41,704 bases of DNA from Streptomycetaceae bacterium. Lineage in GTDB: Bacteria > Actinomycetota > Actinomycetes > Nanopelagicales > Nanopelagicaceae. The stretch lies in the NCBI GenBank assembly GCA_027488575.1, contig JAIYBJ010000003.1, forward strand, positions 1-41,704, written 5' to 3'. Under the pieces are notes generated by a model, which saw nothing but the letters and a program-made list of their open reading frames with translations, was not told where the DNA came from and made no database searches. Both the position numbers and the translations under genes were made by a program. This document shows positions 21,629 to 31,879 of the stretch, piece by piece. Numbering within the stretch: the first letter of the stretch is position 1; every line of letters starts with the position of its first letter.

Positions 21629-21942
21629 AAAGTCCGAATTTTCCTATTTAGGGGCGTTTACCCCCAAGGTGGGGAAAACTTGTGGATAACTGTGGAGATC
21701 TAGCCAATTTCTGTGGGTAACTTACAAGTTTGAAAGAAAACTCGAGAGGTAAAGGGGTGTGAAGTGAAGTTAACTCTAGTTACACACACCTTCGCCCACA
21801 GAAAAAGTGGAGAAGTTAAAGGCTCTGAACTGGGCTTTCATTCTTTACCCACAGATATCGCTCTAGTTACTACTACTACCTTTATATATAAAAATTCACT
21901 CGGTAAAGAACTTACACACAACGAACTAAACAGAGGTGCGGC
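21629..21942. other. oriC: dnaA-dnaN spacer: main replication origin with boxes, trio and unwinding element
   Basis: This 314-base stretch has no real gene. A perfect DnaA box TGTGGATAA is at 21681-21689. Four variant boxes of the form TTACNCACA occur at 21712-21720 (reverse), 21780-21788, 21845-21853 and 21912-21920, spaced 68, 65 and 67 bases. TGTGGAGAT (21691-21699) and TCGCCCACA (21792-21800) are weaker. The right end carries the trio and AT-rich element described separately. The dnaN ribosome-binding site (AGAGGTG) closes the region. Confidence 0.93.
21867..21895. other. DnaA-trio and AT-rich DNA unwinding element
   Basis: TTA-CTA-CTA-CTA (21867-21878) reads TAG-TAG-TAG-TAA on the other strand, which is the repeated TA(G/A) pattern of the DnaA-trio. 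It lies 13 bases from the box TTACCCACA (21845-21853) and is followed by the AT-only run TTTATATATAAAAATT (21881-21896). The order box, spacer, trio, AT-rich DNA is the same as in the basal unwinding system described in Bacillus subtilis between dnaA and dnaN. Unwinding is therefore expected here. Confidence 0.75.
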
Positions 21943-31023: not shown

Positions 31024-31563
31024 ATGGCTTCACTGAAGCGCTCGGCAACAACAACGATTATCACAATCATTGCTGCTGCCTATCTTTATAATCTAGTTTT
31101 CGGCGGACTAGAAAACCGATTCGCGCTTCCAAACCTTGATTACTTAACTTCAACCGGCGAGTGGTATCGACTCGTCACAGTCGCGTTGGTTCATGGCGGA
31201 ATATTTCACTTAGGTTTTAACTTGTATGCGTTAATGGCACTTGGAAATCCAGTTGAATCAGCATTTGGTAAATCACGGTTCTTAATCATTTTCTTCGCCT
31301 CTTTGATTTCCGGATCCTTGCTTTCAACCTATCTTGCAACACCGTTCCAATATTCAGTCGGTGTTTCTGGAGCGGTCTTCGGATTATTCGGCGCCTTTGC
31401 AGTTGTAAGTAAGCGCTACGGTCTTGAGATAAAGAGCATTGCTGTAATCGTGATCATTAACTTTGCGATGGGATTTGTCATTGGCGGCGTTGATTGGCGC
31501 GCACATTTAGGCGGATTAATCGGCGGCTCAATTGCTGCAGCCGCGATGCTCCCAAAGCGATAA
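31024..31563 (+). CDS. Rhomboid-family intramembrane serine protease
   Basis: A 179-residue six-helix protease. The Ser-His dyad is visible: Ser115 in G-V-S-G-A-V-F-G and His161 in R-A-H-L-G-G. The H-G-G-I-F-H-L-G-F-N block (57-66) in helix 2 is typical, including the oxyanion Asn66. It cuts transmembrane helices of unknown substrates. It follows ppiA with a three-base gap, the usual actinobacterial pair. The stop is followed by a DnaA-box-containing island before crgA. Confidence 0.93.
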   Translation: MASLKRSATTTIITIIAAAYLYNLVFGGLENRFALPNLDYLTSTGEWYRLVTVALVHGGIFHLGFNLYALMALGNPVESAFGKSRFLIIFFASLISGSLLSTYLATPFQYSVGVSGAVFGLFGAFAVVSKRYGLEIKSIAVIVIINFAMGFVIGGVDWRAHLGGLIGGSIAAAAMLPKR

Positions 31564-31617
31564 AGAGTTATCCACAGAAGTTATCCACTGTGTGGACCGA
31601 ATTACACGCGTGTAATT
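31564..31617. other. DnaA-box and palindrome island between rhomboid and crgA
   Basis: The convergent spacer holds a perfect DnaA box TTATCCACA (31568-31576) and a one-mismatch TTATCCACT (31581-31589), as direct repeats of AGTTATCCAC 13 bases apart. TCCAC-TGT-GTGGA (31584-31596) overlaps the second. Then an 18-base perfect palindrome AATTACACGCGTGTAATT (31600-31617) runs two bases into the crgA stop codon. It could terminate both genes or bind DnaA, or both. It is about 10 kb from oriC. Confidence 0.6.
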
Positions 31618-31879
31618 AGCGCCATTTAGTGGCGAGCGTGAATCCAAATCCAACGAAGCTAAATCCAATAACCATGTTCCATGCACCAATGCCAGGAATT
31701 GGATACTCAGTCTGAGTTACATAAAAGACCACAATCCAGAAAAGACCTACGAGGAATGCAGTAACCATGAGGGGCGCTAACCAACGTGGGCTCTCTGCTG
31801 GAGCAACTGCGTGATCAACCACGTCTTGCTCGTGTGCGTGCGCCTTTTGAACCTTCTTACGGAGCTTTGATTTTGGCAT
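31616..31879 (-). CDS. crgA: Cell division protein CrgA
   Basis: An 87-residue membrane protein with two helices and a basic cytoplasmic N-terminus (M-P-K-S-K-L-R-K-K-V). The second segment contains P-I-P-G-I-G-A-W-N-M-V-I-G-F, a highly conserved CrgA block. CrgA coordinates FtsZ-ring and peptidoglycan synthesis, and is limited to actinobacteria. It is convergent with the rhomboid gene and divergent from the amidotransferase gene, as in mycobacteria (Rv0011c). A TAACCT box six bases before the ATG suggests a leaderless mRNA. Confidence 0.95.
   Translation of the reverse strand: MPKSKLRKKVQKAHAHEQDVVDHAVAPAESPRWLAPLMVTAFLVGLFWIVVFYVTQTEYPIPGIGAWNMVIGFSFVGFGFTLATKWR

Follow-up and report, generated by a model that had tools for sequence, protein, structure and literature searches.

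Control of DnaA outside oriC has been worked out in Escherichia coli, where two kinds of site change the nucleotide state of DnaA: datA, which depends on IHF and in which DnaA boxes flank an IHF site, promotes hydrolysis of DnaA-bound ATP, and the DARS sites promote the release of ADP from DnaA. In actinobacteria, to our knowledge, only isolated extra-oriC clusters are known. For mycobacteria, DnaA binding was mapped by IDAP-seq and electrophoretic mobility shift assay in M. tuberculosis and by chromatin immunoprecipitation sequencing in M. smegmatis (Hicks et al. 2020, PMC7738170), and just five regions were bound, one being the Rv0010c-Rv0011c gap, next to crgA (Rv0011c). Mutations recur there in clinical strains, as do IS6110 insertions, of which 22 were found; most of these changes fall in a small palindrome located 65 bp from the Rv0010c start, with GAATC as the IS6110 target. 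When variants of the site were reconstructed, the cells were longer and had the drug phenotype of dnaA mutants (PMC7738170). For this mycobacterial site, 'no obvious correspondence' was reported among other bacteria (PMC7738170). We looked at the gap between a rhomboid-domain gene and crgA in a 41,704-nucleotide stretch of an acI actinobacterium (contig JAIYBJ010000003.1, hereafter the window). We found that this gap is almost wholly made of one composite element, three DnaA boxes with an abutting dyad ATNACA-N4-TGTNAT, which is distributed across the phylum. The element is, with good probability, an origin-proximal extra-oriC DnaA control site, gated by a dyad-binding protein and linking initiation to division.

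The initial annotation of this DNA had placed two DnaA boxes, a TCCAC-TGT-GTGGA repeat and an 18-base palindrome between the two convergent genes, and all of them were located as claimed (Table 1). The intergenic gap proper is 52 bases long (31564-31615), and the palindrome reaches 2 bases into the crgA stop codon (31616-31618). The TTATCCACA and TTATCCACT boxes stand 13 bases apart, both on the plus strand. The annotation had overlooked one more box, in inverted orientation, the constant geometry of the triple, and the nature of the palindrome as a distinct operator-like motif that recurs at the whiB2 promoter. This third box lies 14 bp from the first and 1 bp from the second, and its plus-strand core TGTGGA is invariant in the genus, while the middle box reads mostly TTAYCCACA in relatives. 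In the whole assembly (G000, a Planktophila-like acI draft of 1.16 Mb), eight perfect boxes were counted genome-wide, four at the origin, one in this gap and three elsewhere, against six for the reversed-pattern control. At this density, the chance of a perfect box among the ~44 start positions of the gap is ~3e-4, in agreement with the annotation, which had judged a fortuitous box unlikely and had found no other perfect box in the window outside the origin; the remaining four indeed all stand beside dnaA. One-mismatch boxes number 20 in the window versus 9.3 (sd 2.9) in shuffles.

To follow the element in other genomes, related loci were fetched with CrgA, and their gap was found to consist of an element of ~55 bp with the consensus GTTATCCACAG-N3-TTAYCCACA-N-TGTGGA-(0-2)-GAATTACA-N3-GTGTAATT. 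The alignment of the gap across relatives had been set beforehand as the test able to refute the initial annotation, and the element proved to be conserved far beyond close relatives. Over 49 aligned genus sequences, column conservation was 0.87 in the element versus 0.76-0.83 in the flanking coding ends, with 0.92-1.00 in the box cores and dyad arms, 0.41 in the spacer and 0.62 in the dyad centre. A search model (R1) built from 34 gap sequences gave a single strong match in 72 of the 86 genus genomes, including 13 of 13 complete ones, and the remaining matches in the genus scored ~24 bits or less, leaving aside the palindromic site itself when read on the opposite strand. Weak matches of 23-24 bits also fell inside the dnaA-dnaN origin, in the window (21633-21693) and in L217 (1531-1564), where boxes occur without the dyad. 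At the level of the class Actinomycetes, R1 matched 125 of 148 genomes, and the best matches adjoined crgA in almost every family, as seen by comparing coordinates with those of the CrgA search (families carry f-numbers, and 'mycobacteria-like' and 'Streptomyces-like' are inferred labels). Outside this class, at least two genomes (L372, L374) have the element adjoining the CrgA gene or 0.4 kb away. This phylum-wide distribution is new here, and a literature search on crgA together with DnaA box returned no match. A crgA gap with two dyads and two inverted box pairs in tandem, resembling a local duplication, was seen in L134/L220 (genus g69 of f4).

Table 1. Features of the element and its surroundings in the window; conservation values are means over the columns of the 49 genus sequences.
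Feature	Position	Strand	Remark
Rhomboid-domain membrane protein gene	31024..31563	+	PF01694; convergent neighbour, outside the element's function
crgA	31616..31879	-	PF06781; usual neighbour of the element
DnaA box 1, outer, perfect, TTATCCACA	31568..31576	+	conservation 0.96
DnaA box 2, middle, one mismatch, TTATCCACT	31581..31589	+	conservation 0.92
DnaA box 3, weak, inverted, CGGTCCACA	31591..31599	-	core conservation 1.00
Perfect palindrome, 18 bp, AATTACACGCGTGTAATT	31600..31617	no strand	predicted operator of a putative dimeric protein
Core dyad ATTACA-CGCG-TGTAAT	31601-31616		within the palindrome; arms 0.96/0.98, 4-nt centre 0.62
Inverted repeat TCCAC-TGT-GTGGA	31584-31596		
dnaA	20171..21628	+	
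Perfect origin boxes beside dnaA	20066, 20170, 20182 (-), 21681 (-)		

The boxes were found to follow a strict grammar. In type A, the order is box> N4 box> N1 <box dyad (3+2 spacing also seen), and in type B, its mirror image, box> N1 <box N4 <box dyad (2+3 spacing also seen). The third box abuts the dyad by -1 to +1 bp and the middle box can face either way. An inverted outer pair separated by 14 bp was counted in 60 of 67 elements at the class level and in 68 of 78 within the genus, a 14-bp gap being favoured wherever more than one pair of boxes could be read. As a control, the 46 bases preceding each dyad were permuted: the full box frame, present in 21 of the 30 loci fetched by CrgA alone, appeared in 0.1% of these shuffles. 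The mirror-image triple is present in several families, and since families differ in whether they carry type A or type B, the three-box unit was kept whole while flipped relative to the dyad. This box grammar, with its mirror-image, DARS1-like forms, is described here for the first time.

The element is also mobile relative to its neighbours. Some rearranged genus genomes have it in reverse orientation, either at the rhomboid end (L179-L181, L185, L188, L189) or in the rhomboid/crgA gap (L187, L195). In others it occupies the divergent gap that separates gyrB from a response-regulator gene (L183, L184, L186, L190, L192, L193, L196) or a gap separating gyrB from other genes (L182). The gyrB-gap position is an independent relocation of the element. 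In L182-L184, L186, L190, L192, L193 and L196, gyrB itself has been relocated across dnaA, to a distance of ~27-30 kb from it, and the element occupies the gap upstream of gyrB. In complete genus genomes, the element lies ~10-12 kb from dnaA on one side or 27-30 kb away on the opposite side, and the distance reaches up to ~57 kb elsewhere in the class. The architecture of the element, its conservation, its near-single copy number and its relocation are direct observations of the present analysis. In a Streptomyces-like genome (G054), the crgA-side cluster lies ~24-25 kb from dnaA, a distance fitting the name of the Streptomyces cluster H24, which may be the same locus.

We then compared the element with the mycobacterial site. 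In both, the gap is downstream of crgA near oriC, and boxes and palindrome follow in the same order. In two mycobacteria-like loci (L137, L221), GAATC begins the dyad and stands at precisely 65 bp from the start codon of the Rv0010c-like gene. As this dyad start and this distance match those of the published palindrome, the mycobacterial site is very probably the same element, and the sequence described here its counterpart. The acI copy differs in having GAATT instead of GAATC and a rhomboid gene instead of Rv0010c. DnaA binding and the associated phenotype are those established by others in mycobacteria (PMC7738170).

The dyad was also found apart from the boxes. Low-scoring model matches across the genus correspond to a dyad without boxes, located in front of a whiB2-type gene and of infA. 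The perfect dyad TTACA-N4-TGTAA occurs only 2-3 times per genome (0 to 2 for the control pattern), at the element, whiB2 and infA, and spurious copies are rare. Across the class, the dyad directly follows a TTGAC hexamer in the whiB2 loci of almost all families. Promoters of whiB2/whmD (L206-L212, L214-L216, L260-L289, L320-L339) often carry two overlapping dyads sharing a half-site, TGTAATTNCANNNNTGTNAT. The copy upstream of infA (L199-L205, L213, L290, L291) is found in part of the Planktophila-like genus, and the dyad was absent from infA upstream regions of other families; a link to infA was therefore rejected. Since the centre varies freely between invariant inner arms, ACA...TGT, we read the dyad as the site of a dimer. 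The palindrome thus looks like a non-DnaA operator common to the element and the whiB2 promoter, a reading that is new here and that would predict a conserved regulator of an essential division gene.

Which protein could bind this dyad? One of the two HTH_3 proteins of this genome is presumably ClgR, and was rejected because the known ClgR motif differs from the dyad. BldD, an XRE repressor, recognizes TNAC-N5-GTNA and has whiB as a target in Streptomyces (PMC4151990). The half-sites TNAC...GTNA are alike, but the dyad here is TNAC-N6-GTNA, and 11 mycobacteria-like f4 genomes, the f26 genomes and nearly all f35 genomes bearing the dyad have no BldD homologue; the spacer and these absences led us to reject BldD. 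The streamlined freshwater acI genomes keep a BldD-like_C protein (PF21179) between nusB and pyrR (L363, L376), a protein that the mycobacteria-like f4 and the f26 genomes tested lack. MtrA was rejected because its motif is a direct repeat of GTNAC/T-like half-sites (PMC6265350) and the dyad an inverted one, and BldM because its motif, TCAC-N8-GTGA (PMC4125116), is unlike the dyad. In M. tuberculosis, ATCAC-N6-GTGAT is recognized by the XRE protein HigA2, which has the Rv0010c site among its targets and the deletion of which altered Rv0010c expression (PMC11205783). Being a toxin-antitoxin protein, HigA2 is unlikely to be the universal binder. As it binds a similar dyad, XRE-type recognition is plausible by analogy.

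A mechanism can be proposed from these data. Three DnaA molecules would dock in a fixed geometry, with the outer inverted pair 14 bp apart and the third box between them, so that one box pair stands head-to-head, 1-3 bp apart. A putative dimeric second protein would dock on the abutting dyad, and the complex would tune the amount of active DnaA reaching oriC, either by capture or by a change of nucleotide state as at datA and DARS of E. coli. We infer that the site acts on the activity of DnaA and not on an adjacent gene, and that the dyad binder, the other conserved target of which would be the whiB2 (whmD) promoter, is a separate dimer gating the site, by which initiation would be linked to the division programme. 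If so, this locus couples replication initiation to septation across the phylum. A single, rigidly built element kept near the origin is a concrete object to test; it may explain the repeated mutation of one small M. tuberculosis palindrome, and it predicts a missing regulator joining DnaA to the essential division regulator WhiB2.

The main rival is passive titration, in which the boxes absorb DnaA after duplication of the origin region and neither their geometry nor the dyad is of much importance. In Streptomyces and Bacillus, clusters of boxes close to the origin repress initiation at the wrong time (cited in PMC4585315), and DnaA binding at the mycobacterial site is of high affinity (PMC7738170), both of which fit a sink. 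However, a sink could do without a fixed 14-bp frame, without retention of the mirror-image triple and without an invariant dyad next to the boxes, and the mutations that recur in clinical strains cluster in the small palindrome, not in the perfect box (PMC7738170). We therefore regard it as unlikely. Somewhat less probable still is that the palindrome represents two further weak DnaA boxes placed head-to-head, with no second protein. It was read as two DnaA-box-like sequences in M. tuberculosis (PMC7738170), and TGAATCACA matches TTATCCACA at 6/9 bases. Yet the genus half-site CGAATTACA matches the DnaA box at only 4/9, with the box-core CC replaced by TT, and HigA2, as said above, binds this dyad type at the Rv0010c site itself. 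Moreover, the same dyad is found in whiB2 promoters class-wide and whiB2 is not among the five DnaA-bound regions (PMC7738170), which argues for a second protein rather than DnaA on the dyad.

The initial annotation had also proposed that the site could link DnaA to crgA. CrgA couples division to wall growth and the element nearly always adjoins its gene, so that DnaA and a partner could regulate transcription of crgA or of the rhomboid gene. This is improbable, since the element is found where the two convergent genes end and not at a promoter, and neither flanking gene changes its expression in M. tuberculosis dnaA mutants (PMC7738170). In addition, it is found away from crgA in many genus genomes, at the rhomboid side or in the gyrB gap, and these relocated and inverted copies make a crgA-specific function unlikely. 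The same copies, some of them in divergent promoter regions, in effect refute the last proposal of the annotation, a bidirectional terminator containing boxes by chance: the genes are convergent and the palindrome able to fold, but no T-tract is present on either side, the palindrome is not a G+C-rich stem followed by a T-run, folding z-scores are only -1.9 and -1.1 and a terminator scan makes no call. An RNA element was rejected as well, as an Rfam search of the element gave no match and the dyad arms are invariant, not covarying. What stands of the annotation is its view of a DnaA-titrating or origin-timing site, supported by deep conservation, single copy, proximity to the origin and the published mycobacterial DnaA binding (PMC7738170).

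Several points weigh against a gated control site. About 14 of the 86 genus genomes have no strong R1 match, presumably as draft assemblies or through divergence, and one draft (G237) has two strong matches, on separate contigs. Streptomyces-like genomes (f19) carry a degenerate, expanded or rearranged version, to which the model gives hardly any score. As R1 was built from the observed spacing, the counts derived from it are somewhat biased; the 30-locus set derived from CrgA is free of this bias. DnaA binding at the acI element is deduced from mycobacteria, and an effect on nucleotide state would follow from box orientation only.

Among known systems, the element resembles DARS1 and DARS2 of E. 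coli, which also have three DnaA boxes including a head-to-head pair, essential in DARS (PMC10380432). DARS1, read from NC_000913.3 (bioD-uvrB gap) as box> N5 <box N3 <box, has the topology of actinobacterial type B. Its spacings of 5 and 3 bp are not those seen here, the actinobacterial head-to-head gap being 1-3 bp and the other gap 3-4 bp, and the actinobacterial element differs from E. coli DARS by its extra dyad and its origin-proximal position. The datA site, the DnaA-box clusters of Bacillus and the Streptomyces clusters H24/H69/D78 are likewise extra-oriC box clusters restraining initiation, for which we know of no shared dyad or fixed frame. Compared with the mycobacterial report, the site is here phylum-wide, its boxes have a defined grammar and its palindrome is reinterpreted as a putative non-DnaA operator shared with whiB2. 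That it is the Actinomycetota-wide counterpart of DARS/datA, with a fixed three-box geometry and gated by a putative whiB2-controlling regulator, the operator of which, and not a DnaA box, would be hit by the M. tuberculosis palindrome mutations, we hold to be an even bet.
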